IMG/VR virus record: IMGVR_UViG_3300035181_000873
Span: 1-27,837 of that record
DNA length: 27,837 bases
Strand: one strand, 5' to 3'
DNA from: a virus
In this document: positions 5,263 through 27,837 of the stretch, one piece after another
How the letters are laid out: the number at the start of each line of letters is the position of its first letter
Numbering within the stretch: position 1 is the first letter of the stretch
Position numbers and translations under genes: made by a program
The notes under the pieces: generated by a model
What the model saw: the letters and a program-made list of their open reading frames with translations, nothing else
What the model was told of the DNA's origin: nothing
The model's database searches: none

Positions 5263-5294
5263 ATTATGGGTACGAGGTGATTCGGTGTTATACG
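5263..5294 (-). promoter_or_regulatory. Late promoter P8 (endolysin)
   Basis: CGTATAAC (5294-5287), 18 bp, CATAAT (5268-5263), with AGGT directly before the ATG and 7 bases between the box and ATG 5255. A transcript starting 6-7 bases after the box would be leaderless. Confidence 0.75.
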
Positions 5295-5394: not shown

Positions 5395-5399
5395 GAGTT

Positions 5400-6218: not shown

Positions 6219-6220
6219 AT

Positions 6221-6331: not shown

Positions 6332-6343
6332 AATGGCTATCTC

Positions 6344-7210: not shown

Positions 7211-7216
7211 ACCTAA

Positions 7217-7248
7217 ATTTTATCTGTCACGGATCCCGATGTTATACA
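7217..7248 (-). promoter_or_regulatory. Late promoter P7 (fibre module)
   Basis: TGTATAAC (7248-7241), 18 bp, TAAAAT (7222-7217), TT, AGGT, then ATG 7210, six bases after the box. It lies in the 38-bp gap between two tail genes. Leaderless initiation is expected. Confidence 0.8.
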
Positions 7249-7494
7249 TCAAGCGAGGGTGACTGCCTTTACGCCTCCCGACGTTTTAACTTTTAACTGG
7301 TTACTCGCAGTGTTGTACCAAATCTCACCATTCGGAGGGGTCGCGGGGTCCGAAGCCACCATCTTGATGACTAGGTAACCAGTGGTATCGGTTACCGCTG
7401 GGATTGTGATTTTTTGGATTATCATGCCACGCTCAAGCTTCTCGACTCTGAGTACTAGATCGGATAGTAAGCGGACCAGTAGGTCAATGTTCAT
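7249..7494 (-). CDS. Small tail protein with coiled-coil start
   Basis: 81 aa. A heptad-like helix (DLLVRLLSDLVLRVEKLER) is followed by a short beta module with PPNGEIWYNTASNQLKVKTSGG, a strand pattern common in fibre and baseplate proteins where a simulated-label phrase (G-IWYN-ts-NqLkv) precedes a trimeric region. It is probably a minor trimeric tail-tip protein. It starts at ATG 7494, two bases after the hub gene stop, within the tape-measure transcript. Confidence 0.6.
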   Translation of the reverse strand: MNIDLLVRLLSDLVLRVEKLERGMIIQKITIPAVTDTTGYLVIKMVASDPATPPNGEIWYNTASNQLKVKTSGGVKAVTLA

Positions 7495-7496
7495 AG

Positions 7497-8558: not shown

Positions 8559-8567
8559 ATGACCCCT

Positions 8568-9404
8568 TTATATTGCGTTTAGGTATGTATCTCTGAAAGT
8601 CATCGCGCAGTAGCCGGTATCAGTCAGATTGGCATTGCCGAGAGTCACATTGATGCTACCAATAGGTACAAGCCACCACGTGCCATAGATTGAAGCGCGT
8701 ACACTATTACCGGATGGGTAAAGTACGGCTGTCCGGTTGTATACGTCAACTGTGATGTATTGACCGGCCGGGATCGTGTAGGCGATCGAGAGTGTCTCGC
8801 CAGTCGTTTGGTCGGTGATTGTGGGGTTAGTAAGGGGACCGTAGAAGGTGTAGGTCGGATAGGCCGGGTAGTTGCCACCATTATTGACACTGACCACATT
8901 GATCTGACCGTTGGACATATTGAGCGGGATGCCAAAGGGGATCGCGAAGCCTCCGCCATTGATGATACTGATCGAGGCGCTATCTACCGCCGAGTTCATG
9001 AAAAACGGATACTCTGACTCGAACGTCACTTCGACCGTCGAGGCTAGCGAGTCGTCGGCTGTGTAGTCTCCGGTCACCTGTGCGGCTTTGATGTCGAGCT
9101 GTAATTGCTTGCCATCCGATCGGGTGATAATGAGGGTCTGTACTCCGGTCGAGTGGACCTTGCCGATGATCTGTATGAAGTTTGTACGCTGAGTGTTGAG
9201 GTCCGAGAATGAGGTACCGATGATTTTGAAGTCCATGACCAGCTGATAGTTGGCGAAGGTCGGGGTGACGAGCTTACTACCTTGATAGCCGCCACGCTTC
9301 GATCGCGTATATACCACGGCAGGGTAGCTCGCATTTTGGATCGACTGTAAAAGTATCTGAGCTGAGAGGAGGTTACTACCGCCAAGGGTCATGCCGGTGA
9401 TCAT
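8568..9404 (-). CDS. Distal tail protein (Dit)
   Basis: 278 aa. The N-terminal 140 residues carry Sipho_tail-type features: YTRSKRGGYQGSKLVTPTF, VMDFKIIGTSF, then TLIITRSDGKQLQLDIKA and STVEVTFESEYPFF. The C-terminal 140 residues form a second beta-domain (galectin-like in many Dit proteins). It connects the tail tube to the hub. Its ATG overlaps the tape-measure stop (ATGA), which fixes the start. The order tape measure, Dit, hub is that of siphophages. Confidence 0.8.
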   Translation of the reverse strand: MITGMTLGGSNLLSAQILLQSIQNASYPAVVYTRSKRGGYQGSKLVTPTFANYQLVMDFKIIGTSFSDLNTQRTNFIQIIGKVHSTGVQTLIITRSDGKQLQLDIKAAQVTGDYTADDSLASTVEVTFESEYPFFMNSAVDSASISIINGGGFAIPFGIPLNMSNGQINVVSVNNGGNYPAYPTYTFYGPLTNPTITDQTTGETLSIAYTIPAGQYITVDVYNRTAVLYPSGNSVRASIYGTWWLVPIGSINVTLGNANLTDTGYCAMTFRDTYLNAI

Positions 9405-11395: not shown

Positions 11396-11409
11396 AGGCT
11401 TCTGTCTCT

Positions 11410-11441
11410 ATCGTATCGACGAATGGTGTGGGAGTTATACA
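11410..11441 (-). promoter_or_regulatory. Late promoter P6 (tape-measure module)
   Basis: TGTATAAC (11441-11434), 18 bp, TACGAT (11415-11410), then AGAGACAGAAGCCT and ATG 11395, 14 bases after the box, the longest leader of the set. The upstream box lies just after the stop of the frameshifted chaperone. Confidence 0.8.
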
Positions 11442-11442
11442 A

Positions 11443-12023
11443 TTACGGCGCTGGGATCATTGGCACTAGGGTGCTGTTTTGTGACTGAGCTTGCTCGGCT
11501 TTGTTTTTACCGTCCAGATACGCCATCGTCATCCCGACCCACCATGCCGGCTGAGACATAAAGTCGCGGTAGGTGAGTCCGAGCGAGTAGCAGGCGTGCA
11601 CAATGATCAGGTGGTCGTCGTCGGTTCTAATCTTGGATTTTTCGCGGTACGCCTTGAAGACTGCTAGGGTCAGTTCGTCGTTTTTTTTTCGGTGAAAGGC
11701 GCGGACGCCTCGGCCATGATTTTATTGATCTCGGTTACGATCTCCATGCCATCTACGGGAGGCAGTGGGAGTGATCCGCCCTCGTGAGGGACCGGGTTGC
11801 CAGCTTTGTCAGTGATTGACTTGATGAGGAAACTCATCGCGAGCTTGTTAGCGTCGTGCATGACGTTAGCAGGGATATTGCCGAGATCAGGCGTGCCCGT
11901 AGCCGCATTGACGACCGCGTTTGCGGTCCAGAGCTTTTGGATTTCGATAAACTGGTCGTACGTTAAAAACGTCGAGAATACGACGGCATAGCCTGATTGT
12001 GTAACTATCTTTTTGTCGTCCAT
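11443..12023 (-). CDS. Tail assembly chaperone, -1 frameshift product (gpGT-like)
   Basis: The 117-aa chaperone frame and a downstream open frame without its own start are joined by a -1 slip on a run of nine A (minus strand, 11689-11681). Reading GAA AAA AAA and slipping back one base continues as NDELTLAVFKAYREK for 79 residues, through QPAWWVGMTMAYLDG, to TAA at 11443-11445, giving about 193 aa. This matches lambda G/GT: the short and long forms bind the tape-measure protein and recruit tail-tube subunits. Sitting between tail tube and tape measure is the conserved place. The frameshift itself is inferred from slippery sequence, frame and context. Confidence 0.8.
11670..12023 (-). CDS. Tail assembly chaperone, short form (gpG-like)
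   Basis: 117 aa, helical, starting at ATG 12023 four bases after the tail-tube stop and ending at TGA 11670-11672, just after the slippery A-run (…TEKKTTN). It is the unshifted product, expected to be the more abundant form. It has no catalytic motifs. Its function as tape-measure chaperone is inferred from synteny and the frameshift overlap. Confidence 0.8.
   Translation of the reverse strand: MDDKKIVTQSGYAVVFSTFLTYDQFIEIQKLWTANAVVNAATGTPDLGNIPANVMHDANKLAMSFLIKSITDKAGNPVPHEGGSLPLPPVDGMEIVTEINKIMAEASAPFTEKKTTN
11681..11689 (-). other. Programmed -1 frameshift site (A9)
   Basis: Nine consecutive A on the minus strand, read as GAA AAA AAA ACG in frame 0, nine bases before the frame-0 stop. 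It satisfies the X XXY YYZ heptamer (A AAA AAA). It joins the chaperone short form to its extension. Confidence 0.75.
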
Positions 12024-12026
12024 ATG

Positions 12027-12980
12027 TTATGCCAAGGTTGCGGTAAGGTTGGTCACGGTAACGCCGAGCAACTTACTTGTCGCAGTGTCATAGACACCGT
12101 TAAATTCGATCGTCAAGAGGTTGTGCGAGTTCGTGATTGGAGCTGTGACAGCCGTATAGAAAGCTTTGGGGATAGTGATGTCGAGGACATAGTGAGCGCC
12201 AGTGCCGATGGTAGCAGCGCCAGTGCAGATGATCTCAATGCTCTCAGCGGTCCCAGCGACATAGTTAGTTAGGCGAGTGTTTGTAGTTGTGTCGAGATAG
12301 ACCTCGATTTTACCTGAGACTTCGGACCCACCAGAGATCGAGGCGTATGAGGGCTCAACAGATCCAAGGGCATGGACCATCTCAAGACCATTTTTGTAGG
12401 TCAGTTCAAAGCTCTCGACCTCGCCGATTGCCGATCCGCCAATTTTGACGACGGTCTGCGAGTGATCGAATGCTGGGACCGTTGAGAATGACGGAGTGAT
12501 CGCGGTTGCGGTTGCCTGAGTCTTGGCCATGAACGTTGGCTCGACGGCAATCATCTCGCCACTTTTGCCGGTCACTTTGAGTTGAGACACGATACTACCT
12601 GCAAAGCGGTACACTGCTTCGGCCTGTGCCTGTTCGATTGTGAGTGATGGCTTGGGGTTGGTTTCGGTGAAGACGTGGTCATATACGATAGTCTCGCCAG
12701 CGTGAGTCGCTGGGGTGTCGGTTCCCATCGCGGAGAGCCAAAGATAGGCAATGTGGTCGGCGAAAGCGTCGAGGGTAAAGTTTCCCTCGTAGGTAACTTT
12801 ACCCTTGATAGCTGTGAGATTTTTCTGTAGTTGACCACGAACTCCGGGAATGAGGGCGATATTTTCTTTGATGGTCATGCCGCCAGTTGGGCGAACGGTC
12901 ACCGACTTGTCAGGTACAACTGCTGTGCCCCAGGTGGTTTCTTTTTTGTACGAGATGGCTGCGAGTAGACCGACTGACAT
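12027..12980 (-). CDS. Major tail tube protein
   Basis: 317 aa, beta-rich, in the tail-tube position before the chaperones. It starts LLAAISYKKETTWGTAV, a common opening of phage tail tube proteins, continues with VTYEGNFTLDAFADHIAYLW, and has a second beta domain (about 160-260: IGEVESFELTYKNGLE, SGKIEVYLDT). It would polymerise into the tube around the tape measure. AAGGGG eight bases before the ATG is one of the stronger ribosome-binding sites here, fitting an abundant protein made from a downstream cistron of P5. Confidence 0.85.
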   Translation of the reverse strand: MSVGLLAAISYKKETTWGTAVVPDKSVTVRPTGGMTIKENIALIPGVRGQLQKNLTAIKGKVTYEGNFTLDAFADHIAYLWLSAMGTDTPATHAGETIVYDHVFTETNPKPSLTIEQAQAEAVYRFAGSIVSQLKVTGKSGEMIAVEPTFMAKTQATATAITPSFSTVPAFDHSQTVVKIGGSAIGEVESFELTYKNGLEMVHALGSVEPSYASISGGSEVSGKIEVYLDTTTNTRLTNYVAGTAESIEIICTGAATIGTGAHYVLDITIPKAFYTAVTAPITNSHNLLTIEFNGVYDTATSKLLGVTVTNLTATLA

Positions 12981-12983
12981 ATT

Positions 12984-13172
12984 TTATTTCCCCTTCTTTT
13001 TATTATCTTGTACTTCGAGCTCGGGTTTAGCGTCTGATTGATCACTGACAGTCACAAAATTTGCGTTGTCGATGACTTGATCAGTCTCTACCACTTCGCC
13101 GGTCTGTGAGACCGTGATACCGAGTGAGGGTAAGTGTATTTCGCCGGTTCCGATGTATCTATATTTAGTCAT
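12984..13172 (-). CDS. Small protein before the tail tube
   Basis: 62 aa: a short beta-type N-terminus (KYRYIGTGEIHLPSLGITV) and a polar, charged C-terminus ending NKKKGK. Its layout parallels the 73-aa protein at 15144-15365 (strand, valine-rich middle, Lys-rich tail), so the two may share a fold. First gene behind P5. Function unknown, possibly a minor tail or head protein. Confidence 0.65.
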   Translation of the reverse strand: MTKYRYIGTGEIHLPSLGITVSQTGEVVETDQVIDNANFVTVSDQSDAKPELEVQDNKKKGK

Positions 13173-13181
13173 ACTACCTCT

Positions 13182-13213
13182 ATTCTATCGGCCACCTTTG
13201 CGGGTGTTATACA
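13182..13213 (-). promoter_or_regulatory. Late promoter P5 (tail-tube module)
   Basis: TGTATAAC (13213-13206), 18 bp, TAGAAT (13187-13182), AG, AGGT, AGT, then ATG 13172, nine bases after the box. Confidence 0.8.
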
Positions 13214-13220
13214 TTATTTG

Positions 13221-13664
13221 CTACACCAGGGCGCCGGTCCCTCGCTGGATGCGTACTACTGAGGTAACCGTAAATTCGGCAATCCTGACGGGCGACTCTT
13301 TTGTGCCGTACCGCCACGATCCGCCGGTGAGGATCGCGTAGTTACACGCACCGTTCAGCGTGATGTTATTGTCGAATGCTTGCTGCATCGTATCGGCAAG
13401 CCCTTCGAGAATGTCCTCATAGTCTGGATCGTTGGCTTCGTCGGTCCTGAAGTACAGCCTGACGATGTGCTGGTATGTACGCTCGTCAACTCCACCCACA
13501 CCAATGCTCGAGAATTTATTAGCGTGACCCTTGGCCTCGACGGTTGCGGCCGGATAGGACCCAAGCGCCTTGGCTTCTTTGGCATACACAACGGCGATCC
13601 CGGTGACAGTGTTCAGCACCGTAACGATTTGATCCTTGATATTTTTGTAACCGTATACGGTCAT
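13221..13664 (-). CDS. Tail terminator / tail completion protein
   Basis: 147 aa of alpha/beta type (IKDQIVTVLNTVTGIAVVYAKEAKALGSYPAATVEAKGH, IVRLYFRTDEAND, then LEGLADTMQQAF). Length, the pattern of a helix followed by strands, and its position after the HK97 gp10-like gene and before the tail-tube genes match tail terminator proteins, which cap the tail at the head side. Its ATG overlaps the gp10-like stop (ATGA). Confidence 0.7.
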   Translation of the reverse strand: MTVYGYKNIKDQIVTVLNTVTGIAVVYAKEAKALGSYPAATVEAKGHANKFSSIGVGGVDERTYQHIVRLYFRTDEANDPDYEDILEGLADTMQQAFDNNITLNGACNYAILTGGSWRYGTKESPVRIAEFTVTSVVRIQRGTGALV

Positions 13665-14140
13665 ACTTGCCCCCTGACGCTATCGATTATTTTAGTAACA
13701 GCACTCTGCAGGTTTGCGGACAGGATGGGACCACCGGCCTCCTTGGCGTCTCGCATGTAGAATTTTGGCCGGATATTGCCGATGTACGTATACGGACGTG
13801 TGCGGCCGTTTGAGGTGGCGCGACCCCGTGAGACGTTGATCGTCATCCCGACAGTCCCGTACTCTTGGGCGCGGGCATATTCGAGATCGGTACCTACCAC
13901 GCCGACGATGTTATCACCCTCGATCCTGGCTTTGTGCCCCGGCGACTGCTCATAGTGAATCGATCCCCAGAGAGCACCGCGGAGATGAGGGGCGTGTGAG
14001 ACGGCATAAGCTTGGATATTGTAGCCAGCGGCATCGATCGCGTCTGAGATAGCCTTGGTCGCCACTGAGCCTACGTTTTTGAGCGCCTGGGCTAGTGTGT
14101 CGGCGCCGATGACTGTAGCTGATAGCGAGTAGTCTGCCAT
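13661..14140 (-). CDS. HK97 gp10-like head-tail component
   Basis: 159 aa. The motifs AHAPHLRGALWGSIHYE-type (here SHAPHLRGALWGSIHY) and VGVVGTDLEYARAQEYGT are characteristic of the HK97 gp10 family (residues about 50-100). These proteins lie in the head-tail joining block. ATG 14140 has GAGG eight bases upstream and sits one base after the preceding stop. Confidence 0.85.
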   Translation of the reverse strand: MADYSLSATVIGADTLAQALKNVGSVATKAISDAIDAAGYNIQAYAVSHAPHLRGALWGSIHYEQSPGHKARIEGDNIVGVVGTDLEYARAQEYGTVGMTINVSRGRATSNGRTRPYTYIGNIRPKFYMRDAKEAGGPILSANLQSAVTKIIDSVRGQV

Positions 14141-14141
14141 A

Positions 14142-14462
14142 CTATACGACCTCGTGTAACATTGCTCGAATATATGAGAGTGGTCGCCAGTTTATGACGA
14201 AGGGGACTCCGTCAAGTAGGTACACGGTCCCATTCTGATCGATCACCTTGTCTCCGGCTTTGAGCACAACCGTGGTGTCGTATACGAAGAGCTCGAATAG
14301 TTGGAAGGCTGGCACGTCGACTGATGGCTGTACATCGGTCCCGGTGGGTGCGAGACAGCACACGACGCCGGTATATGCGGCAGTGGAGTCCCACGCCTCG
14401 GTATTGCCGGTTCGTTTCTGGTGATACACACTGACTATGTTATTTCGTGGTAGTGTCGGCAT
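14142..14462 (-). CDS. Head closure / stopper protein
   Basis: 106 aa, beta-rich (NIVSVYHQKRTGN, FELFVYDTTVVLKAGDKVIDQNGTVYLLDG). Size and place between the connector (14464-15102) and gp10-like gene match head-closure proteins such as SPP1 gp16, which plug the portal after packaging. No ribosome-binding site is obvious. ATG 14462 follows the previous stop by one base, so translation is probably coupled. Confidence 0.65.
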   Translation of the reverse strand: MPTLPRNNIVSVYHQKRTGNTEAWDSTAAYTGVVCCLAPTGTDVQPSVDVPAFQLFELFVYDTTVVLKAGDKVIDQNGTVYLLDGVPFVINWRPLSYIRAMLHEVV

Positions 14463-14463
14463 T

Positions 14464-15102
14464 TTACATTCGATCGACAGGAATCAGCCGGTACTGATCG
14501 AGCGCGAGGACCACAAAGTCAGGTATGCCACTCGTGGCGTCCTCTTTGTACCTTGCGCTTACCGTTCCGGCCGCAACCTGTACGGGGTCTCTCCCTGCAT
14601 CTGGTCCGGCTAATACTTTGCGCGCAGTCCATTCGATCATCGCTTGTTTGATTGTGGCGGGTAGAGCTTGCGAGGCATCTGAGTTGTAGGTGATTTGTAC
14701 CGATTTAAACCCAAGCGGATTGGGTAGCATGATGGTCATGGGGCGTACCCACATTTTGATATGGGTCCCGTAGTTGTAGACGTAGTGCATATCCCAAACA
14801 ACACCACCGACGGTCACGCTGATCACCCCACCCGCTAGCGGGATCGTGGAGTCGGCGGGAGTGGCTGAGATCGAGGGCTTGCCGACAAAAAATGTATCCT
14901 TGGCGTAGGGAGCGGTAGAGTCCTCAAGTGCGTCGAAGTTCTCGACGACTGGGTTGCTAAAATTCCAAGTGCGATTGCAGTACTGATCGACCATGTCCAT
15001 CATGGCTGGGACCATCGCGGTCACGGCTGCTGTCTCGGCTGTGGTTAGGGTCCGCTGTAAATATGTGGCTACATCTGAGGCGGTGATATACGTGTACGTC
15101 AT
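14464..15102 (-). CDS. Head-tail connector (adaptor) protein
   Basis: 212 aa. It starts with the helical pattern of gp6/gp15-type adaptors (TASDVATYLQRTLTTAETAAVTAMVPAMMDMVDQYCNRTW), then a beta insertion (SVTVGGVVWDMHYVYNYGTHIKMWV) and a last helix in TIKQAMIEWTARKVLAG. Such adaptors form the ring under the portal. It opens module P4, and the ATG comes six bases after the -10 box, with AGGT touching it. Confidence 0.75.
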   Translation of the reverse strand: MTYTYITASDVATYLQRTLTTAETAAVTAMVPAMMDMVDQYCNRTWNFSNPVVENFDALEDSTAPYAKDTFFVGKPSISATPADSTIPLAGGVISVTVGGVVWDMHYVYNYGTHIKMWVRPMTIMLPNPLGFKSVQITYNSDASQALPATIKQAMIEWTARKVLAGPDAGRDPVQVAAGTVSARYKEDATSGIPDFVVLALDQYRLIPVDRM

Positions 15103-15108
15103 ACCTTT

Positions 15109-15140
15109 ATCGTAACGTCATCACCCTGCGCTGTTATACA
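15109..15140 (-). promoter_or_regulatory. Late promoter P4 (connector module)
   Basis: TGTATAAC (15140-15133), 18 bp, TACGAT (15114-15109), AA, AGGT, ATG 15102. The six-base gap from box to ATG predicts a leaderless mRNA. Confidence 0.8.
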
Positions 15141-15143
15141 CCG

Positions 15144-15365
15144 CTATTTTTTGGTGGTGCGGGGAGATCTGACCATTTTGTCGATAGGTGGAGCGGCGAC
15201 TACTTTGGCGACCACTGGCTGCGATCGCTCAATTAGGCGAGCGTTAGGACCAAGGGCGCCCGCAACGTCGTCAGGGAGCTCGACGCGTTTGTTTACCTCG
15301 AAGCGGTAGATCTGACCATCGAGGCCTCGACAGCCGCCAGTATGATTGACTAGGTATATTGACAT
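15144..15365 (-). CDS. Small protein after the capsid gene
   Basis: 73 aa: an N-terminal strand region (SIYLVNHTGGCRGLDGQIYRFEVNKRVELPDDVAGALG) followed by a Val/Ala/Pro-rich part and a basic tail (SPRTTKK). Small proteins of this type often lie just after the capsid gene in HK97-like phages; a decoration or head fibre role is possible but not shown. The 149-bp structured gap upstream is unusual for so compact a genome. Confidence 0.65.
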   Translation of the reverse strand: MSIYLVNHTGGCRGLDGQIYRFEVNKRVELPDDVAGALGPNARLIERSQPVVAKVVAAPPIDKMVRSPRTTKK

Positions 15366-15514
15366 AAGTTTGTGCCCTTTCGGGTTGCTGGCGGTAGCTG
15401 TAGAGGTTATGTGTTTGCTCTACATTGCCGCTCACCTTTCAGCTACGGTTATGCTAGGTTACTCGGCCGGCCTAGCAATAATATCTATTGCCGAGTTTAG
15501 TTTTTCAGCTTCGA
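15366..15514 (-). other. Structured non-coding gap between capsid and next gene
   Basis: No gene of its own. It contains nested complementary segments: GTAGCTG/CAGCTAC (15394-15400 with 15440-15446) around TGTAGAG/CTCTACA (15399-15405 with 15418-15424), then ACTCGGC/GCCGAGT (15461-15467 with 15490-15496) and a competing CTAGG/CCTAG pair (15454-15458 with 15471-15475). No T-run follows, so it is not a plain terminator. It could be an mRNA processing or stability element that raises capsid output over downstream genes. Confidence 0.5.
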
Positions 15515-16648
15515 CTAAGAGGCTGCGGTTGCCAACCAGGCGTGAGCCTTGGTAGGATTCGCAACTTCAATGTCAATTAAGCCCCAGACCTTGAGAGCAA
15601 CCATATTCTGTTGGAATAGGTTGATCGAGGTAAAGCCATCGACATCGGTGACAGTAGCTTGATCACTCATCTCGACAGTGTACTGCATGGCGTCGCCATG
15701 AATAAGATTGTCGTAGTTAACCAGAGCTGCAAATTTCTTTCCAGCATGACTAACGTCTGAGTTTTTGGGCATTACTGCACTTGTATCAAAGGGAATATCC
15801 CACATCGTTGATGGCATATTGCCACCAAAAGACTCAAACAAGAAACCTTGTTTGTCGGTCCCTACAACGCTGCGGAGTCTGCGGAAGTTATTCAACGCGG
15901 ACAGGCTCAACGCCCATCGCAAGTTGTCACCTATAAAGTTTTCATCGATCGAGTCGATTGTACTGAGTAGGTCTTCAGCGGTCGCATCACTGTAGGATGT
16001 TTTACCAGAGCCCAAGGTATAACCCGGGACGCCGGAAGTTTGGAAAATACCCTCGCCACTAGCTAACCCCAGTAGGCCCCACTGATCCTCGAGCTTGGCG
16101 ATAGCCTTGCCAGCGAGCATAGTGATTGCGTCCACTAATTGGACGGTGCTATTTTGCAATAACACTTTGGAGATAGGGATAATGACGCCAACGGTTTTTG
16201 CGCGGAGCTGTAAAGCACCGGTCGTTGGTTGCGATGCGGTTATCGCTGCGGTGTCACCTGCCAGACGGTAGGCGCTCATAGACCCCAGAGTAGGAATGTT
16301 TTCATTCACACCCTGCATGGGCCACTTGGAGGCGTACTTGCGTACGAGACCATATTTCTGAGCCACAGTGATAAACTGATCGGATACATAAGTCGGGACT
16401 AACTCAGACCCGGACGTACTAACGCCCGAACTGAGAGCCTTGGTGTCGCCACCTACGGCAAGTCTCTTGAAATATTCCGCTGCCACTTCTTTCTTTTCGA
16501 CCTCGTCGCTTTTGGCGGCACTGTCTCCAGATCCAAAGATGTCCTTACGGAGAGGCTTATCTGACTTGAGTTTGGCAAGTACAGCGTCAACCGTTTTGGG
16601 GGTGACCGCCTCGACTACTGTTTGTAGTTCCTTTTGTTCATCGTTCAT
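15515..16648 (-). CDS. Major capsid protein (HK97 fold)
   Basis: 377 aa. The N-terminal 70 residues are charged and helical (VEAVTPKTVDAVLAKLKSD, AAEYFKRLAVGG), like a short delta domain removed by the protease. The body matches phage HK97 capsids: GSELVPTYVSDQFI, then ENIPTLGSMSAYRLAG, TTGALQLRAKTVGVIIPISKVLL, LEDQWGLLGLASGEGIFQTSGVPG and a C-terminal strand with KVWGLIDIEVANP. A very purine-rich AAAAGGGGGTG lies about 12 bases before the ATG. It is the second gene after P3, directly behind the protease, the standard order. Confidence 0.9.
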   Translation of the reverse strand: MNDEQKELQTVVEAVTPKTVDAVLAKLKSDKPLRKDIFGSGDSAAKSDEVEKKEVAAEYFKRLAVGGDTKALSSGVSTSGSELVPTYVSDQFITVAQKYGLVRKYASKWPMQGVNENIPTLGSMSAYRLAGDTAAITASQPTTGALQLRAKTVGVIIPISKVLLQNSTVQLVDAITMLAGKAIAKLEDQWGLLGLASGEGIFQTSGVPGYTLGSGKTSYSDATAEDLLSTIDSIDENFIGDNLRWALSLSALNNFRRLRSVVGTDKQGFLFESFGGNMPSTMWDIPFDTSAVMPKNSDVSHAGKKFAALVNYDNLIHGDAMQYTVEMSDQATVTDVDGFTSINLFQQNMVALKVWGLIDIEVANPTKAHAWLATAAS

Positions 16649-16667
16649 AAAATATATTCACCCCCTT

Positions 16668-17621
16668 TTAGTTTTTAGCTTGTTTTAATAAACGTAGGGT
16701 GAAGCCGATCTGCTGGTCAGATTTGACCAGTTCACGGTGTAGACGTTTGATGAGGCCTTGGGGCATGCTCTTACCATCGTCTTGACCATCATCGGTTGCG
16801 ACGGTGTCTAGGACCTGTTTCACGAGGTCCATACTGGCGCCTATGTGGTCCACGGCTTTAGTGAGTACTTCTTGATGTTTGGCTGAGATGGTCCGACCGG
16901 ACTTAGTCACGTCGACCTTGCCGGCTTTACCTTCGTCTTCAGATCCCTCATCAGTACCGCCATCGGCCGCATCCTCTGCGGCGTCCTCTTCGAGCTCTTC
17001 AGCGTCGAGACATTCATCGATTAGGTTTTTGAGTTGTTTCACGGTTAGGTCGACGATTTTGGTGTCGTCAGTGTAGCCAGGATCAGTGGGGTTGTCGGCG
17101 TCTTTTTTTGTGTCAACGATTCCGCTAGTCTTGAGCGCTTCGACGTCAAAGCCTTTGCCACGTAGGACCGTGAGGGCTTCGGGATTGTCGGGGATCGCGA
17201 CGGCACTAAACTCGTACAGTTCCCACTTCGTGAAGGTCCGACCACCGAGTTCGTTATTTTCGTATTCGAGACCCAGGAAGCCGATACTCCATGCGTTCAT
17301 GTAGCCATCTTTGGCGAGTGAGTACACAAGATCGGAGTCAGCCGAGATGCCCTCGTCGGGGAATTGGACCATGGCGGTCACACCGGTGTCACTTACTTTG
17401 ATTTCGAGACACTTAGCGATCGGGGTAGGGTGACCGTAGTAGTCATGACCTAACATGACGACGGGGTTTTTCATGTAGTTGTCATAGACCATGCCAGTTG
17501 GCACGACAATATCTTTTGAGCGATCGGGAGTAGCAGTGGAGATCGTGACAACGAGAGTACGGCCACTATCGGCGGCTTTGGTGATGGCTGTGTATAGCTG
17601 GTGCAGTTTCTTGTTTTTCAT
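16668..17621 (-). CDS. Prohead protease with acidic C-terminal scaffold-like region
   Basis: 317 aa. Residues 1-160 are an HK97-type (U35/S78) prohead protease: STATPDRSKDIVVP, His59 in VMLGHDYYGHP, Ser112 in YMNAWSIGFLG and Glu137 in ELYEFSAVAIPDNPEA. Residues about 165-317 form a strongly acidic, helical extension (CLDAEELEEDAAEDAADGG...) that probably acts as internal scaffold and is cut away on maturation; no separate scaffold gene is present. It lies between portal and capsid, behind its own promoter P3. Confidence 0.87.
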   Translation of the reverse strand: MKNKKLHQLYTAITKAADSGRTLVVTISTATPDRSKDIVVPTGMVYDNYMKNPVVMLGHDYYGHPTPIAKCLEIKVSDTGVTAMVQFPDEGISADSDLVYSLAKDGYMNAWSIGFLGLEYENNELGGRTFTKWELYEFSAVAIPDNPEALTVLRGKGFDVEALKTSGIVDTKKDADNPTDPGYTDDTKIVDLTVKQLKNLIDECLDAEELEEDAAEDAADGGTDEGSEDEGKAGKVDVTKSGRTISAKHQEVLTKAVDHIGASMDLVKQVLDTVATDDGQDDGKSMPQGLIKRLHRELVKSDQQIGFTLRLLKQAKN

Positions 17622-17632
17622 ATTCTACCTCT

Positions 17633-17664
17633 ATCGTACCGACAGACGTCGCCGGTGTTATACA
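17633..17664 (-). promoter_or_regulatory. Late promoter P3 (protease-capsid module)
   Basis: TGTATAAC (17664-17657), 18 bp, TACGAT (17638-17633), AG, AGGTA, GAAT, then ATG 17621, 11 bases after the box. It is closest to the consensus of the set, fitting high capsid demand. Confidence 0.85.
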
Positions 17665-17665
17665 T

Positions 17666-19711
17666 TTATTCGCCGGACCCTGCGTCTCCGCCCGTTACCG
17701 GTTGCAGAGCACATTCACAATTCGGATGAGCGGTGGGGGCGTCGTCGCCGCTCGGGAAGGTCTCATCAAGTCCTATGACTCCCGCGTCAGCGTTTCCAGC
17801 GCACACACCACATGCTGAGTCGTCAGCGAGCCAGCTTTTACCAGTCACGACGTTGCTCTGCTTGTAGCCTTCGAGGTTACCTTGAGCGTAGGCGTCGATT
17901 ACTTCGGTCCTCGCGATCCTCATCGCCCGGAATTCGCTTTGATTGTTAAAGAAGGTTTCGATACCGGCTGAGATGTCATCGATACTGGCGCCCTCTTCGA
18001 CCCCCAAGGTAACGACATCGGTAATGTCCTCGCGCATGGTGTCGCTGTAGCTCGTTGAATTGGCAAGAGCATTGTTTGTCACCCACGCGACCGCTCGGGG
18101 ATTGGCGAGGTCAAAGGCGGCGTCGACTCCCACTTGGGCGAGTGCTACCTTGCCGGAGTCGGCTAGTACCTGGCTCTGTTTCTCTTTGGTGGCGTTGTAG
18201 AGTAGGCCAACCCAGTCGGTGTAATTGGTAAAAATGAGTTTGAGTAGGCTTGAGGCCTCGCTCTTTTTGAAGTGTCCGATCTTTGTGAGTAACCGTGATA
18301 CACTCTTCTGCTTTAGGTTACTCTGTAGCTGCTCGTTGAGCTGGGTATTCAGGTCCATGAAGGTTTTTTGAGTCGCCACGATCTGCTCACTGACGTACAC
18401 ACCGCGTTTGCCGGCGAGCTTCTTTTGGTCCACTGGGTGCTCATACTCGATCATTGCTGACTTGTAGATGTGTTTGGCGGCTTTAGTTGGGTTGCTAGGG
18501 CTCGACATGGGGACCTTGAGGCTCGATACCAAGATGACGTCACCTTCGGGGAGCGCCGGCATAGCCGGGCTCATCATGGCACGCGCTTCGTTGATCGTGA
18601 TGTAGCTATTGTTTACCCCGCTATCGCGGTCCAGACGCTTCTCGTCGAGGTTCTCGGGGATTGGGTCGGCGTAGGTGAAGCGCCAGTCATTCTCGTTGAG
18701 ACCGAATAGCGGCAAGAAAAACTCATTGAGGCGAGATACAAAAAATTGCATCTTTGGCTTGATCACAAACTTGTTAAATGTGTACTCACTTGCTTTGGCG
18801 CTGGCTAGGTTCACGTCTTCGGTGATACCGAGCACAACCTTGGGAACCCTGAATATAGCAAGGATCTCGTCGCGGGTATTCTTACGGCTCTCGCTAAACT
18901 GCATCTCGCGCGAGGTAGGGGTGAGGCTTGTATATTCGAGGCCACCATCTAGGATAGCGAGCTTATTCGAGTTCTGGTATCCACGAAACTTGGCATTCCA
19001 TGACCCGAGTATTCGGTTATATTGCTCGTCGGATACCTTGCCAGTTGTCTTGAGGATCGCGGCCGGCATAGCTGAGTTACCAAAGAAGTTTCGCTGCCAC
19101 TCGGCGGCGAAGGTGTCAGTGTCGATCGCGAGTGAGGCGGCCTCTACGGTCCCACGGCCTCGGTACTGATTCTGTGGATTGAAGTGCATAAAGTGAATAA
19201 CCTCAGACGGTTCGAGGCGAATGTCGGCGCCAGCCTCATTACGGAATGTGTAGTGGTCGATGTAGTTCTCTTTGCTTTTGACCACGGAGACGGCAGTTGG
19301 ATCGAGTGGCCATATTTCGACAGGCTTACGGCCACTGCTCTTGGCGCCGGGTAGGTACCAGTAAGCGTTACCGTCGATCTCCATCATGGCGGCTGTGTAA
19401 AATTTGAGATCAGCGAACGTCATCCAGTCATTGACGTGATTTAGGAGCTGTAGAGCCTCGTGTTCCTGTACGGTCTCCCAGCCGTACGCCTTTCCTTTTT
19501 TGATACGCTTCTGTAGCATGAGTTCCATTTCGGCGAGAGGTTGGGCGATTGCGTTGGTACAGGCGTACACCCACCCGCGGTAGGCGACCAGAAACTCCTT
19601 CTCTCCCATGCGAGGCTGCGCCGTAGGCATCATGAATGAGAATAGCTGGGGGTTTGCTGCCCCTTTAACTAAACCTGCCGTGAATGATTTAACCGAGTCG
19701 AGTATAGACAT
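17666..19711 (-). CDS. Portal protein fused to MuF-like minor head protein
   Basis: 681 aa, against roughly 400 for a portal alone. Residues 1-410 are an HK97-type portal (YRGWVYACTNAIAQPLAEM, YLPG...WPLDPTAV, RKNTRDEILAIFRVPKVVLGI). From about 440 on, the protein is helical and ends in a Mu gpF (MuF) domain: RIARTEVIDAYAQG (about 598-611), Cys634-x2-Cys637 and HPNCEC (662-667), a likely metal-binding set. The portal is the dodecameric DNA gate, and MuF proteins are minor head proteins brought inside with the DNA. Fusion guarantees one-to-one incorporation. It is transcribed alone behind P2; P3 follows directly. Confidence 0.88.
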   Translation of the reverse strand: MSILDSVKSFTAGLVKGAANPQLFSFMMPTAQPRMGEKEFLVAYRGWVYACTNAIAQPLAEMELMLQKRIKKGKAYGWETVQEHEALQLLNHVNDWMTFADLKFYTAAMMEIDGNAYWYLPGAKSSGRKPVEIWPLDPTAVSVVKSKENYIDHYTFRNEAGADIRLEPSEVIHFMHFNPQNQYRGRGTVEAASLAIDTDTFAAEWQRNFFGNSAMPAAILKTTGKVSDEQYNRILGSWNAKFRGYQNSNKLAILDGGLEYTSLTPTSREMQFSESRKNTRDEILAIFRVPKVVLGITEDVNLASAKASEYTFNKFVIKPKMQFFVSRLNEFFLPLFGLNENDWRFTYADPIPENLDEKRLDRDSGVNNSYITINEARAMMSPAMPALPEGDVILVSSLKVPMSSPSNPTKAAKHIYKSAMIEYEHPVDQKKLAGKRGVYVSEQIVATQKTFMDLNTQLNEQLQSNLKQKSVSRLLTKIGHFKKSEASSLLKLIFTNYTDWVGLLYNATKEKQSQVLADSGKVALAQVGVDAAFDLANPRAVAWVTNNALANSTSYSDTMREDITDVVTLGVEEGASIDDISAGIETFFNNQSEFRAMRIARTEVIDAYAQGNLEGYKQSNVVTGKSWLADDSACGVCAGNADAGVIGLDETFPSGDDAPTAHPNCECALQPVTGGDAGSGE

Positions 19712-19724
19712 ATGCTTTACCTAC

Positions 19725-19756
19725 ATTTTCCCGCCTACCCGGTCGGCTGTTATACA
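19725..19756 (-). promoter_or_regulatory. Late promoter P2 (portal)
   Basis: TGTATAAC (19756-19749), 18 bp, GAAAAT (19730-19725), GT, AGGT, AAAGCAT, then ATG 19711, 13 bases after the box. The box lacks the first T of TANNAT but keeps A at position 2 and the final AT. Confidence 0.75.
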
Positions 19757-19769
19757 TTGCAGAGCGTGG

Positions 19770-21221
19770 CTATCTGACTCCCGGCACTATGCGACCCTCT
19801 GAGAATGAGAGCATGAGCGCCTCGGCATGGTCCGGCGACTTGCCGGTCCTCTCTTTGAGTTTGTCTTTGGGTTCAATCTGTAGGACCTTGTCGCTGCTGA
19901 TTTTGTATTTAATCCAGGTGAGCTGGGACCATTTGGCATGGGGCTCAAGCTTGCCACCTGACTGTAGCCACTCCCTGAGTAGCCAGAAGTTCTCGGCTTT
20001 GATGTTTTTGTACTTACTCTTGTCGACTGGCTCGCCACCTACCGCCTCACCCTTGACGTAGTAGTCGAGCTCATAGAGGCGATCAGTCACACCACGCCCA
20101 ATGCCAATATCATCGATCGCGATAGCCTCTGGCTCAAGTAGTCGGACCTTGCGGTATACGGTCGGCTGAGTGGCGTAGGTGGCCTGATCGACGTGGTGAC
20201 CGTCACGGTCCAGGTAGATAGTGTACTTGTCTATGAGCTCGATCACCTGGGTGACGTTGGTCATGGTGTCGTTTGATCTATTCTCTGCCTCAATCCACGC
20301 GTGATCACCTTGGCGGATAGCATAGACGTTTGAGTCGCCACCACCACCTATATCGACGCCCATCCTCATCGGCTCGTCAGTAAGGTCAAGGCGGTTGAGA
20401 GTAGCTGACTGTATCATCGCGTCAGTCACTAGCTGACGATAGCCCTCGTGGTCGATCTCATCCTCGGCGGGGAATTGGTTCAGGTAGAATTGCTCGAAAA
20501 ATGGCATCCCGCGCTTCTCGTCGACACTCTTTGGGTCGAGACGTTTCTCGCTGATGGCTTGGTCAAGACTGATATTGATACGGTAATAATCCGTGTTGTA
20601 GAGCACGTTTTGCATAAAATGATTGCGGTTGATGGCATTGCCTAGCTCAAACAAAAACGTCGTGTTGTAGTCGCCAGTCCCTTCGAGTATTTTGAGGACC
20701 TGTAAGTACTTTGCGGGGGACAGTAGGGGAGACTCATCGAGAATGACATTAGGGGAGTGCTCACCGATTGTCTTACTGACATCGTTATCTGGGCCGAATA
20801 GCGAGACGATCTTGATGCCTCCGCCGTTCTTGAAGTTGAGAGATGTTTTGCGCCGCTCACGTTGCAATCGGTCGAGCGCCTCGGTCCCGTCGTACTGTAG
20901 CTCAGCGATAAAGTCGGGCACGTCAAAGAGGTGGTCGATCACCTTTTTCATGATAATGTCAGAGGTCCCATACTTCACAGACGCGATCACGAATGGCTCA
21001 CGCTTGAGCATAACCCGTAGGATGGCACCGATTGAGATCGCCTCAGACTTACCGTATCCCGTAGGGGCCACACAGGCCACACGGGGACGTACGCGTAGCA
21101 CGATTGCAGCAACTATGGTGAGCTGGCCGAGAGACATGACTTGATCAGCGGGCTTGTCGTTGATGACAAAGACGCTAACCAGTTTCTTGATTCTCGCCAG
21201 CCATTTCGGCTCTGGCTTCAT
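19770..21221 (-). CDS. terL: Terminase large subunit
   Basis: 483 aa DNA-packaging motor. N-terminal ATPase: Walker A APTGYGKS (about 52-59) and Walker B VILDES (159-164). C-terminal RNase-H-like nuclease: Asp290 in MGVDIGGGGDSNV, Asp370/371 in AIAIDDIGIG and Asp464 in SPDHAEALML. The central Asp lies in a phrase typical of nuclease strand 2. I use ATG 21221 (AAAGGG seven bases upstream) rather than an in-frame TTG two codons earlier. The gene overlaps the small terminase by 47 bp. Confidence 0.92.
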   Translation of the reverse strand: MKPEPKWLARIKKLVSVFVINDKPADQVMSLGQLTIVAAIVLRVRPRVACVAPTGYGKSEAISIGAILRVMLKREPFVIASVKYGTSDIIMKKVIDHLFDVPDFIAELQYDGTEALDRLQRERRKTSLNFKNGGGIKIVSLFGPDNDVSKTIGEHSPNVILDESPLLSPAKYLQVLKILEGTGDYNTTFLFELGNAINRNHFMQNVLYNTDYYRINISLDQAISEKRLDPKSVDEKRGMPFFEQFYLNQFPAEDEIDHEGYRQLVTDAMIQSATLNRLDLTDEPMRMGVDIGGGGDSNVYAIRQGDHAWIEAENRSNDTMTNVTQVIELIDKYTIYLDRDGHHVDQATYATQPTVYRKVRLLEPEAIAIDDIGIGRGVTDRLYELDYYVKGEAVGGEPVDKSKYKNIKAENFWLLREWLQSGGKLEPHAKWSQLTWIKYKISSDKVLQIEPKDKLKERTGKSPDHAEALMLSFSEGRIVPGVR

Positions 21222-21726
21222 CCTCAAACCCTTTCAGCACGTCGGCTAACTTGTCGACGGTATTTTTCTCAGTCTCGACTTTGATTTTTGTGCTTGGGTT
21301 ATAACCAGCCATGTGCAAAACACTCTCGGCAGCTTGCCACTTGTAGGCTGCGGCATGGGTCATCGTCTCAAGCGCAATCGGGACCGCCTCTTGTAACTTC
21401 TTGTTGGCGTGTTTGTACTGACGGCGTAGGGCTTTGGTCCGATCGAGTACTAACTCATCGTAGGCAAGGCGTACCGGCCTACCCATCTCAAAAAGGTGCT
21501 TTATTGTACCGTAGGCAAGTTCGCTGACTTTCGCCAAGTCGATCAGGTCATCATGCTCTAGTCGACCGTACACGAGCTTCTGGTAGTCAGGCTTGAGCTT
21601 GTCGACTAGCATCGGGTGTTCGGGATCTGGTTTGGGTAGCTTAACTTTTGGCACTCGGTGAGTCTTAGCGCTAGTCGGCGAGTGTTTTACCTGGTCCTTT
21701 GATTTTGCGGTCTTTTTCTTTTGCAT
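21175..21726 (-). CDS. terS: Terminase small subunit (probable)
   Basis: 183 aa. A Lys/Pro-rich N-terminus precedes helices and the segment AVPIALETMTHAAAYKWQAAESVLHMAGY (about 110-140), the pattern of small terminases in which a helical pair before an AG turn drives oligomerisation. It lies directly before, and overlaps, the large terminase. The start is ATG 21726 with GAGAG five bases upstream; a TTG in frame lies 12 bases earlier. It recognises the packaging site; no pac or cos site was identified. Confidence 0.75.
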   Translation of the reverse strand: MQKKKTAKSKDQVKHSPTSAKTHRVPKVKLPKPDPEHPMLVDKLKPDYQKLVYGRLEHDDLIDLAKVSELAYGTIKHLFEMGRPVRLAYDELVLDRTKALRRQYKHANKKLQEAVPIALETMTHAAAYKWQAAESVLHMAGYNPSTKIKVETEKNTVDKLADVLKGFEDEARAEMAGENQETG

Positions 21727-21734
21727 AAAATCTC

Positions 21735-21908
21735 TCAATTATTGCGATTTTTATTGGTATATTGCCCGATATGGTCCTCGCCGCTTCTCGTGAATGGTGA
21801 GACGGATGTAGACCTGGGTTTGCCGCCCCGTCGTCTCCGACCAAAGAGTTTGCGCCATAAGTTCTCGCGTACTGGGTTGTAGCTTCGATTGTTGCCTCTT
21901 TTGCTCAT
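21735..21908 (-). CDS. Small Arg-rich protein (57 aa) before terminase
   Basis: ATG 21908 overlaps the TGA of the previous gene (ATGA) and has GAGG just upstream; it ends at TGA 21735-21737, eight bases before the terminase ATG. The protein starts MSKRGNNRSYNPVREN and has an LFGRRRGGKPRS basic core. It is very basic, suggesting nucleic-acid binding, and could assist packaging. No known family recognised. Position, coupling and ribosome-binding site argue it is real despite its size. Confidence 0.6.
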   Translation of the reverse strand: MSKRGNNRSYNPVRENLWRKLFGRRRRGGKPRSTSVSPFTRSGEDHIGQYTNKNRNN

Positions 21909-22105
21909 AGGACCTCTGCCGAAATTTCGATAGTCTTCTCGTACCTGATGCGTTTGTCAGGCACGTAGGGGTACTCAATCGAGTACATCGACTCGACTGC
22001 ATCCTTTGCCTCTTTGGTCGTCTCAAAGATGTTCGTAAATAATGGCCATAGGTGTTGTGGTCTGCCAAGTGTGGGGATAATGATCGCGATGTCTTGAGTC
22101 TTCAT
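21905..22105 (-). CDS. Small protein resembling the start of a GT2 glycosyltransferase
   Basis: 66 aa. The opening QDIAIIIPTLGRPQHLWPLFTNIFETT looks like the first strand and helix of family-2 glycosyltransferases, which bind the nucleotide sugar. The sequence stops before any DXD motif or acceptor part, so it cannot be a full enzyme. Either a truncated remnant or a short protein reusing this fold. It opens the terminase module right behind P1, which argues for retained expression. ATG 22105 lies six bases after the -10 box. Confidence 0.65.
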   Translation of the reverse strand: MKTQDIAIIIPTLGRPQHLWPLFTNIFETTKEAKDAVESMYSIEYPYVPDKRIRYEKTIEISAEVL

Positions 22106-22111
22106 AACTTT

Positions 22112-22143
22112 ATGCTACCGTTCCCACGCCTGGGGGTTATATA
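22112..22143 (-). promoter_or_regulatory. Late promoter P1 (terminase module)
   Basis: TATATAAC (22143-22136), 18 bp, TAGCAT (22117-22112), AAAGTT, ATG 22105. The upstream box overlaps the TAA stop of the preceding gene (22137-22139). The six-base gap predicts a leaderless transcript. It is the first late promoter downstream of the sigma-like gene. Confidence 0.75.
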
Positions 22144-22352
22144 TTAATATTCGGTTTACTATCCAATAATTCGTCACGGATGTCGTACAACCACACTCTC
22201 AACTGAGAGAGCGTAGGGCGGTCGTATTCGAGTAGCGACTTGTCATTCGACCACGACTCATATATCTGGTCAGCGCTCATTTTCGGATGGATGAGTACAA
22301 AGAGATAGACAACTTGCTCAACCACGTTTTTCATAGCGCTAATAAGTCCCAT
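22137..22352 (-). CDS. Small protein after the sigma-like regulator
   Basis: 71 aa: a hydrophobic N-terminal helix (MKNVVEQVVYLFVLIHP), then a charged helical part (LSQLRVWLYDIRDELLD). It overlaps the 3' end of the sigma-like gene by 14 bp, so the two are co-transcribed and probably coupled. Unknown function. Co-expression could mean a partner of the regulator, for example an RNA-polymerase adaptor or an antagonist. Confidence 0.65.
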   Translation of the reverse strand: MGLISAMKNVVEQVVYLFVLIHPKMSADQIYESWSNDKSLLEYDRPTLSQLRVWLYDIRDELLDSKPNINI

Positions 22353-22695
22353 TGCGACGCCTCCAGCCTTGCAGGGGCACGCCGGCCATCACATGTAATC
22401 GAATACGCATACGCCCGACAATTTGGTGTACGGCCTGCTTGCACACTTGGGGTTTGAGTCGTGCCGCGATCTGCCGGCGAGTGTAGCCAGCCTGAATGAG
22501 GGCGAGTACCTGAACCTGTCGGGTTGTAAGGAGTGAGCGAAGCTTTTGCATGTCTAGGTTGGAGGTAGACATCTCGACCTCGATACCTTGATCACTGACT
22601 CCCTCAGCGAAATCACTGAGACTGTTGTCGTGATCATCAACTACGCGCTCGAGTGAGAGGGTTTGGACTGTTTGGTATATGGCAGGTATTCTCAT
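22339..22695 (-). CDS. Sigma-70 region 3.2-4-like late transcription regulator
   Basis: 118 aa. Residues 11-32 (QTLSLERVVDDHDNSLSDFAEG) resemble the sigma region 3/3.2 phrase SLD...DDDxxLGDFIxD. Residues 55-100 (LLTTRQVQVLALIQAGYTRRQIAARL, then KQAVHQIVGRMRIRL) are a region-4 helix-turn-helix. Regions 1 and 2 are absent. Region 4 reads the -35 element and touches the polymerase flap, so alone it could redirect host polymerase. I chose ATG 22695: the upstream in-frame ATG 22755 lies in the promoter -10, before the expected transcript start. It sits immediately before all late modules. Alternative: an ArpU- or LuxR-type activator. Confidence 0.75.
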   Translation of the reverse strand: MRIPAIYQTVQTLSLERVVDDHDNSLSDFAEGVSDQGIEVEMSTSNLDMQKLRSLLTTRQVQVLALIQAGYTRRQIAARLKPQVCKQAVHQIVGRMRIRLHVMAGVPLQGWRRRNGTY

Positions 22696-22706
22696 ATTTT
22701 GGGCAC

Positions 22707-22741
22707 AAAAAAAGCCACGCACGCAATTCGCGTATGTGGCT
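22707..22741 (-). terminator. Promoter-proximal intrinsic terminator before the sigma-like gene
   Basis: On the minus strand AGCCACATACGC-GAATT-GCGTGCGTGGCT (12-bp stem, one mismatch and one wobble) followed by TTTTTTT. It begins only about six bases after the predicted transcript start and ends 11 bases before the ATG. Unassisted transcripts would be about 40 nt long. Confidence 0.85.
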
Positions 22742-22753
22742 ATCGATAAGTCC

Positions 22754-22783
22754 ACTATATCCCAACAAAATAATGGTTGTCAA
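22754..22783 (-). promoter_or_regulatory. Near-consensus sigma-70 promoter of the sigma-like gene
   Basis: TTGACA (22783-22778), 18 bp, TATAGT (22759-22754) on the minus strand. It is the best host-type promoter in the window. Its predicted start near 22747 is followed at once by the terminator at 22741-22707. Confidence 0.8.
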
Positions 22784-22789
22784 CAGCTG

Positions 22790-22795
22790 TATAAT
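22790..22795 (+). promoter_or_regulatory. -10 box of a leaderless plus-strand gene
   Basis: TATAAT preceded by TG, with ATG 22802 six bases downstream, so the transcript probably starts at the ATG. No recognisable -35 at 17-18 bp. It abuts the -35 of the divergent promoter, so the two probably compete. Confidence 0.55.
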
Positions 22796-22801
22796 TACGG
22801 C

Positions 22802-23287
22802 ATGGATGCTAGTCAGGTAGGCTTATCACTCGCAAGCGGTTTTGTAGGTTCGGTTATAGGCGCGCTTGCTACCGTATGGGCCACAAACGCAACTATAAAC
22901 GCCACCGCCAGACAGACCAGAGAAGCGGATGAGAAGCGAATGCAGGATGAAAAAAAGGACCGCGAGGAGGTTATGTGTAATTGGATAAAAGCCGAGATAA
23001 TCCAGATCAGTCAAATCATAAAAAATACACCACCCGGGTTCCAAAGGTTGCCGACATCAGGATGGGAAACTAATAAAAAGTACCTTTTTCTGTGGACGGT
23101 AAAAGAGCAGGCCGCGCTCATAAACTTTTACAATGAAGTTGGTCTATTTAACACGTATGCAGATCAGTATGTTCACATCGGCAATCACCCCATGATGAAT
23201 ATGCCTTGGCAACTGACGGCGGCTCGTCAAAGAGTAATGCCCGTTTTGACGATTGTATTAGCCGAGCTCAAAATATCTGTCTCCTGA
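22802..23287 (+). CDS. Membrane-anchored coiled-coil protein, lone rightward gene
   Basis: 161 aa. An N-terminal transmembrane helix (about 8-32, LASGFVGSVIGALATVWA), a charged coiled coil (about 38-56, QTREADEKRMQDEKKDREEV) and a soluble C-terminal domain with Trp and Tyr. I chose ATG 22802: it directly follows a TATAAT box, while the upstream in-frame ATG lies across the divergent promoter. It is monocistronic, divergent from the late regulator and convergent with the early operon. This layout fits a lysogenic-conversion or superinfection-exclusion gene expressed from the prophage, but no known family is recognised. Confidence 0.7.
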   Translation: MDASQVGLSLASGFVGSVIGALATVWATNATINATARQTREADEKRMQDEKKDREEVMCNWIKAEIIQISQIIKNTPPGFQRLPTSGWETNKKYLFLWTVKEQAALINFYNEVGLFNTYADQYVHIGNHPMMNMPWQLTAARQRVMPVLTIVLAELKISVS

Positions 23288-27096: not shown

Positions 27097-27662
27097 ATTG
27101 CACCTCCCATATCGGTAGTGGAAGCGACGGAGTTGCGGGTCGCCGCCTCCACTACTGACGCAACTCTTTCTAACTGATCCGTCGGGTGAAAGACTTTCCG
27201 CAACGCCTCCCACTTTGTTTTGTCCGGGATCGTAAAATCCTCAACGGTGTGAGTGAGCATGTCGGCCCACTCTCTGATGTCCATAGTTGGATAGTCCTTC
27301 TCGACCTCCACCTTGCCCTTGCTGGCTTTCCAGCTGGCTAGTGGCAAGATCCATTGATCGTGACCACCAAAGTCACGCAGAATGCCTTTTGAAGTGAACT
27401 TGGACCTGGTGGTCGTATAGAACTGACCCATGTCTACACGTGTGTAGATGATCTGGGGATTGAAATCGTGCTCAGCGAACGTGTCGGTGATCCGCTTGGC
27501 AATCGCATAGCCGTTGCAGAAACGAATTACTTTGACAGGACTCATATCAGCGATGTAGGAAGCCTTGCCCTTGTAGTAACAAATCTTGCCCTGGGCTAGG
27601 AATTTATTTCCGATCCAGATTCCGATTTGTGCCTGGGCAGACATGGGCAGCTTTGCTGACAT
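27093..27662 (-). CDS. Hypothetical early protein between annealing and replication genes
   Basis: 189 aa of mixed alpha/beta sequence with a C-terminal helix (HPTDQLERVASVVEAATRNS). No family recognised; a role in recombination or replication is suggested only by its neighbours. ATG 27662 follows the annealing-protein stop closely, with GGAGGGGG upstream. The start lies inside the terminal repeat. Confidence 0.65.
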   Translation of the reverse strand: MSAKLPMSAQAQIGIWIGNKFLAQGKICYYKGKASYIADMSPVKVIRFCNGYAIAKRITDTFAEHDFNPQIIYTRVDMGQFYTTTRSKFTSKGILRDFGGHDQWILPLASWKASKGKVEVEKDYPTMDIREWADMLTHTVEDFTIPDKTKWEALRKVFHPTDQLERVASVVEAATRNSVASTTDMGGAI

Positions 27663-27837
27663 ATACTATTTCCCCCTCCGTGAGCAATTTGTGGCGTGCT
27701 TACCCGCAGGACCGTGACATTCTGGACACTGACCGTTTGACGTCACTACCTGAGCTTCACGTGGAGCGTATGTCGCTGGGCGAGGCGTATAGGCAACTGG
27801 AGTCAATGGTATGGCCGGAACCTCTTCCTTCTTCTCG
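27653..27837. repeat. Right copy of terminal redundancy (185 bp)
   Basis: Direct repeat of bases 1-185 with two mismatches. Both differences change an amino acid in the Pro-rich linker of the annealing-protein gene: read on the minus strand, codon ACA (Thr) becomes ATA (Ile) and TCA (Ser) becomes CCA (Pro). They may reflect population variation or read error. Confidence 0.95.
27666..27837 (-). CDS. Repeated 3' end of the annealing-protein gene (partial)
   Basis: This is the second copy of the last 56 or so codons of the gene at 14-847, present only because the contig ends overlap. Its stop (TAG, 27666-27668) corresponds to 14-16. It is not a second gene. It carries the Ile and Pro variants of the linker. 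Confidence 0.9.
   Translation of the reverse strand, partial: EKKEEVPAIPLTPVAYTPRPATYAPREAQVVTSNGQCPECHGPAGKHATNCSRRGK

Follow-up and report, generated by a model that had tools for sequence, protein, structure and literature searches.

A stand-alone sigma region 4-type protein as the most likely reader of a non-host -35 box at the late promoters of an uncultured phage

SigO is a region-4 protein that lacks region 2 and works together with the region-2 protein RsoA at specific promoters (PMC10028694). In phage T4, AsiA remodels region 4 of sigma, and MotA binds the MotA box (PMC6755090). Ltr has one late promoter with about four imperfect repeats located well upstream, from -107 to -42 (PMC13123087), and Xpf of PBSX is listed with both sigma regions 2 and 4 (PMC10141391). 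Phage 7-11, with its gp47, has eight late promoters with a non-host consensus (PMC8948821). Here we describe a phage locus encoding a small regulator. Its family, predicted fold and promoter rule, together with the co-occurrence and co-variation of protein and box, make it the most likely reader of a non-host -35 at all late promoters of the phage.

The analysed stretch of DNA (the window; 27,837 nucleotides) is a 27.8-kb virus record of an uncultured phage. A 185-bp direct repeat (99% identical) is present at its ends, at positions 1-185 and 27653-27837, and the record was therefore read as a genome that is probably complete and either circular or terminally redundant. A temperate lifestyle is presumed, given the integrase that the phage encodes. 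The features of the regulator locus and the late promoters are collected in Table 1.

Table 1. Location of the regulatory features in the window and, in the last row, in related loci
Feature	Position	Strand	Remarks
Sigma-A-type promoter TTGACA-N18-TATAGT facing the regulator gene	22754..22783	-	11/12 consensus bases
Intrinsic-terminator-like hairpin with U7 tract	22706..22741	-	between promoter and regulator start codon; folding z -3.3
Late regulator, 118 aa, sigma-region-4-type HTH	22339..22695	-	ATG at 22695, stop at 22339-22341; HTH residues about 43-104
Recognition helix of the regulator	about 22384-22440	-	from residue 86, by family alignment
71-aa gene, predicted trihelical HTH-like domain	22137..22352	-	overlaps regulator 3' end
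Late promoter TATATAAC-N18-TAGCAT	22112..22143	-	6 nt before ATG at 22105, first late gene
Late promoter TGTATAAC-N18-GAAAAT	19725..19756	-	before portal gene
Late promoter TGTATAAC-N18-TACGAT	17633..17664	-	before gene at 17621
Late promoter TGTATAAC-N18-TACGAT	15109..15140	-	ATG at 15102 on predicted +1
Late promoter TGTATAAC-N18-TAGAAT	13182..13213	-	before gene at 13172
Late promoter TGTATAAC-N18-TACGAT	11410..11441	-	before 664-aa gene (presumed tape measure) at 11395
Late promoter TGTATAAC-N18-TAAAAT	7217..7248	-	ATG at 7210 on predicted +1
Late promoter CGTATAAC-N18-CATAAT	5263..5294	-	before gene at 5255
TTTGTATAA(G/C) variant sites	L002 9718, L003 3700, L005 9117, L010 6251, L012 6891, L017 11772, L031 3005		

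The 118-aa ORF is real. An alternative reading of 138 aa from a GTG at 22755 is unlikely, because the sole strong sigma-A-type promoter would initiate RNA near 22747, downstream of this codon. The gene is followed by those for a 71-aa protein, a 66-aa protein, the putative small subunit of terminase, the large subunit of terminase and the portal. Its place immediately upstream of the late modules, pointed out in the original prediction, was found in 16 phages. The match of the regulator promoter to the consensus was equalled or beaten by 0.7% of random 160-mers. A similar order of promoter, terminator-like hairpin and start codon was observed in the related loci L002, L005 and L026, with weaker promoter matches there, and it is possible that the late switch is controlled by attenuation, antitermination or read-through at the hairpin (window 22696-22783). 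Opposite the regulator lies a divergent 202-aa ORF (22679-23287, plus strand) with an N-terminal hydrophobic segment, which probably starts at 22804.

Used as a single query, the 118-aa protein retrieved no relatives from viral contigs or annotated phages. These were reached through the terminase: a single query yielded one relative (L002), and a two-sequence terminase alignment yielded about 20 more viral contigs and one contig of a Patescibacteria MAG (L023). In 11 records, including the window, a regulator homologue was located ahead of the terminase. With four members from a family search and one from the whole record behind L011, the family comprises at least 16 members, encoded just upstream of terminase genes. 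They share the HTH sequence CLTxRQxxVxxLLxEGYxRKExAxxLxVxLQAVHQIIxRIRKRL and the N-terminal motif SLxxxxxxGxELGDxG. In 380 sampled genomes from the phylum to which the L023 MAG belongs (label: Patescibacteria), only the locus already known and a single LuxR-like gene on a chromosome were found. The host lineage is possibly Patescibacteria, an assignment based on one binned contig. The same contig carries a putative large serine recombinase gene beside tRNA-Gly (L023 3971-5657), which may mark an integration site.

The protein had been described as an HTH protein without sigma regions 1 and 2, and this description was confirmed. AlphaFold2 predicted the HTH at residues 43-104 with confidence (block-mean pLDDT mostly 91-95); confidence was low for the N-terminal 42 residues, which showed hardly any regular structure. 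In structure comparisons, the HTH matched the -35 domain of SigD with Z 9.6 (61/62 residues, rmsd 1.7), and almost all of the 50 top-ranking PDB matches were to sigma region 4. The comparison proposed as a check on the original prediction thus favoured region 4, but the LuxR-type protein EL222 followed close behind (Z 8.5). The assignment of the predicted fold to sigma region 4 is supported, although the fold alone does not fully separate it from the LuxR type.

The profile searches gave matches of both types. The best match of the window protein was GerE, below the cutoff, and the L002 relative exceeded the Pfam cutoff for Sigma70_r4_2. Over 11 members, GerE matched 9/11 and Sigma70_r4 8/11, with the sigma-4 models at 7-8/11 for E <=0.1, and phage sigma-factor families of PHROGs matched up to nine members. 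No receiver or ligand domain, a feature of LuxR/GerE proteins, was matched ahead of the HTH in the window protein, and Ltr, RinA or ArpU models were absent among the library matches listed for the family. Weak matches to 9/15 members were given by PRK06930 of NCBIfam ('positive control sigma-like factor'), a model presumed to be of the Xpf type.

One part of the original prediction, that the phrase SLERVVDDHDNSLSDF resembles sigma region 3.2, was not borne out. A profile of region 3.2 only, built from ten patescibacterial sigma-A-type sequences, placed the window protein only at rank 73 among 2835 ORFs, and the profile-profile alignment of the regulator family with sigma-A covered the HTH only. 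In the family alignment, the DHDNSLSDF part of the phrase falls mostly inside a window-specific insertion, and the members from L005 and L026 lack the whole N-terminal segment. On these grounds, region-3.2 homology was rejected.

The eight minus-strand late sites of the window each consist of TGTATAAC and a sigma-A-type -10 separated by exactly 18 bp, with a start codon 6-14 nt further on. Deviations were limited to one change in each of two boxes, one GAAAAT -10 and one CATAAT -10. The strict pattern TGTATAAC-N15-21-TANNAT occurred five times in the window, compared to 0.03 expected. A weight matrix built from the window and L002 was applied to 14 other, held-out loci, where it detected 34 sense pairs at N18, at most seven at any other spacing, and none at N18 in antisense orientation. 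Over all loci, an ORF start was present just after 53 of the 55 sites. The logo of these 55 sites reads AA-AATGTATAA(G/C)A followed by TANAAT, with TATAA and A-11/T-7 conserved at 94-98%. Conservation of the box extends from -42 to -30, and each promoter carries a single non-palindromic site. A recurring TTTGTATAA(G/C) variant, in several cases at a portal-like gene, replaces AATGTATAA at some sites. When the collection was scanned with the promoter pattern, the matches listed were mainly due to chance; among them were at least three stretches with two or more sites placed at start codons, each from a regulator-bearing contig.

The claim that the late promoters combine a normal -10 with a foreign -35 was borne out by these sites. 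Among 53 late sites, none had an extended -10, and the best match to TTGACA at normal spacing was 4/6 or less. Since both elements are absent, the host enzyme alone should open the late promoters poorly. The sampled sigma-A of the host lineage has a canonical TRERIRQIE helix and therefore should not favour the late boxes. A purine occupies the seventh base after the -10 (+1) in 87% of the sites, and in 100% of the class with the ATG 8-9 nt away. This fits transcription start at that base, and leaders of most genes would therefore be about 0-5 nt long. The late mRNAs may thus be leaderless or nearly so (window 5263-22143, minus strand; 53 sites over all loci). The literature yielded nothing useful on leaderless genes in Patescibacteria.

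The distribution of the box followed that of the regulator. Sites were present in all 16 regulator-bearing contigs, and 14 of these, counting the GATAAC phage described below, had a site of at least 15 bits; the single sites of L023 and L029 were weaker, at 14.6 and 13.8 bits, respectively. It should be noted that the window and L002 match by construction, as the matrix was trained on both. No site reaching 15 bits was found in the whole records of seven related contigs without the regulator; in the highest-scoring one, from L018 (14.8 bits), the ATG falls within the spacer.

A natural change of the box was found in the G388 record (L011). All six of its sites read GATAAC-N18-TANNAT (six sense, none antisense; shuffle mean 0.017), and the TATAA(C/G) version was absent from this record. 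Conversely, no GATAAC sites were found in the other loci tested. The recognition helix of the G388 regulator is also changed, to GVKRLQICRMRKRI from the GISLQAVHQIIPRI of the others, in a comparison made by eye without gaps at a position where MAFFT places a gap. This co-variation, a single event in one phage, is the strongest evidence that the regulator reads the -35. Together with the fixed N18 and the location of the box at -42 to -30, it lends indirect support to the proposal in the original prediction that region 4 reads this element.

The 71-aa protein is kept beside or near the regulator in most loci, including G388, and in L029 and L031 the two form a single fused reading frame; in three of the 16 contigs (L010, a fragment, L023 and L028) the partner was not recognised. 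The predicted fold of the fused partner domain is a trihelical HTH, with modest best matches to the Pax paired domain (Z 7.2 and 7.0) and lower scores for Tc3 and Fur-type structures. The N-terminal half of the fused-protein model was ignored, since the alignment was too shallow. No useful match was found for the partner in PDB sequences or PHROGs, and none in Pfam, where two members were tried. Homology between the partner and the regulator HTH was rejected (hhalign probability 0.3%), and a mixed alignment that forced the two together was discarded. The fusion in two relatives, a Rosetta-stone relationship, suggests that the 71-aa protein and the regulator act together, and the former is probably accessory to the latter.

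We propose that the recognition helix of the regulator would read AATGTATAA(C/G), centred at the -35 position, while the host sigma-A holoenzyme, via sigma region 2, would still read the ordinary TANAAT -10, 18 bp further down. The phage protein would substitute for host sigma region 4 at the late promoters and switch on the whole late block from eight separate promoters, and the host polymerase would turn on the structural genes only when the regulator is present. That a stand-alone region-4-type module provides the host RNA polymerase with another -35 specificity by replacing host region 4 is, in our judgement, probable. A more detailed version, with the phage region 4 in trans and host sigma regions 1-3 forming a hybrid holoenzyme assisted by the second HTH, near-leaderless late mRNAs from several promoters of almost identical sequence, and a host lineage, possibly Patescibacteria, whose phage transcription has been little studied, is tentative, and we would lean slightly against all of its parts holding together.

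One counter-argument is that the fixed spacing and the -35 location of the site would be equally expected of an activator overlapping the -35. Such a conventional activator, a LuxR- or region-4-like HTH that binds the box and recruits the holoenzyme through contacts with host region 4 or a different subunit, would agree with the GerE-type matches to 9/11 members and with the near tie of EL222 in the fold comparison. Nevertheless, the box covers the groove that host region 4 would occupy, which argues for replacement of the latter, and sigma region 4 dominates the structure matches. Moreover, typical LuxR sites are dimeric, unlike the one non-palindromic site per promoter seen here, which also differs from the approximately four repeats of Ltr. 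We therefore regard recruitment by a conventional activator as rather unlikely, though as the most serious of the alternatives. We infer activation and not repression by the regulator. A protein lying across the -35 of constitutive late promoters could block the polymerase and keep them off until induction, as might suit a phage that encodes an integrase, but sites without TTGACA and an extended -10 would be weak by themselves, and the gene adjoins the late genes and not an immunity region beside the integrase; this makes repression very improbable. We give just as little credence to the view that TATAA(C/G) is itself the -10, with TANAAT belonging to a leader or ribosome-binding region and the protein doing something else. 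TATAAC does resemble TATAAT, and the sigma factor of phiEco32 recognises just one element, tAATGTAtA (PMC8948821). However, the sixth base of the upstream element is G, C or A and not T, while T-7 of TANAAT is conserved at 98%; the N18 spacing is exact, the purine preference falls exactly 7 nt after TANAAT, and no further conserved element is present upstream at a -35 distance.

Overall, the original prediction was partly supported, and the promoter rule of the family is unusually clear. If replacement of host region 4 is correct, the locus would represent a minimal reprogramming of promoters, in which one region-4 module shifts the -35 preference of the host enzyme and the -10 stays standard. 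The tight rule, the several sites per genome and the natural switch from TATAA to GATAA make the region-4 code directly testable with purified parts. In addition, the promoter rule predicts the late transcription units of uncultured phages directly from their genomes.

The SigO/RsoA pair, cited as a precedent in the original prediction, fits only in part. The phage regulator likewise carries region 4 without region 2, whereas its neighbour is a predicted trihelical HTH protein, and none carrying region 2, as RsoA does, was recognised; host sigma region 2 would therefore have to take that role. The -10 is of the ordinary sigma-A type. With AsiA/MotA of T4 the locus shares the use of two phage proteins and the division of the promoter, host sigma keeping the -10 and phage proteins taking the -35 (PMC6755090); here, however, the DNA reader itself would have the region-4 fold, and there is no recognised sequence relation. 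The four-repeat arrangement of Ltr is not seen at the eight promoters of the window, each of which has one box at -35, in contrast to the Ltr/RinA regulators of Gram-positive phages. Xpf of PBSX is likewise a sigma-like late regulator, of a prophage, but the phage protein described here has region 4 only. Finally, 7-11 gp47 and phiEco32 gp36 are also phage-encoded specificity factors that drive late promoters of non-host consensus (PMC8948821), but these are sigma factors working with the core enzyme at promoters without a host-type -10, while the regulator described here would leave the host -10 in use.
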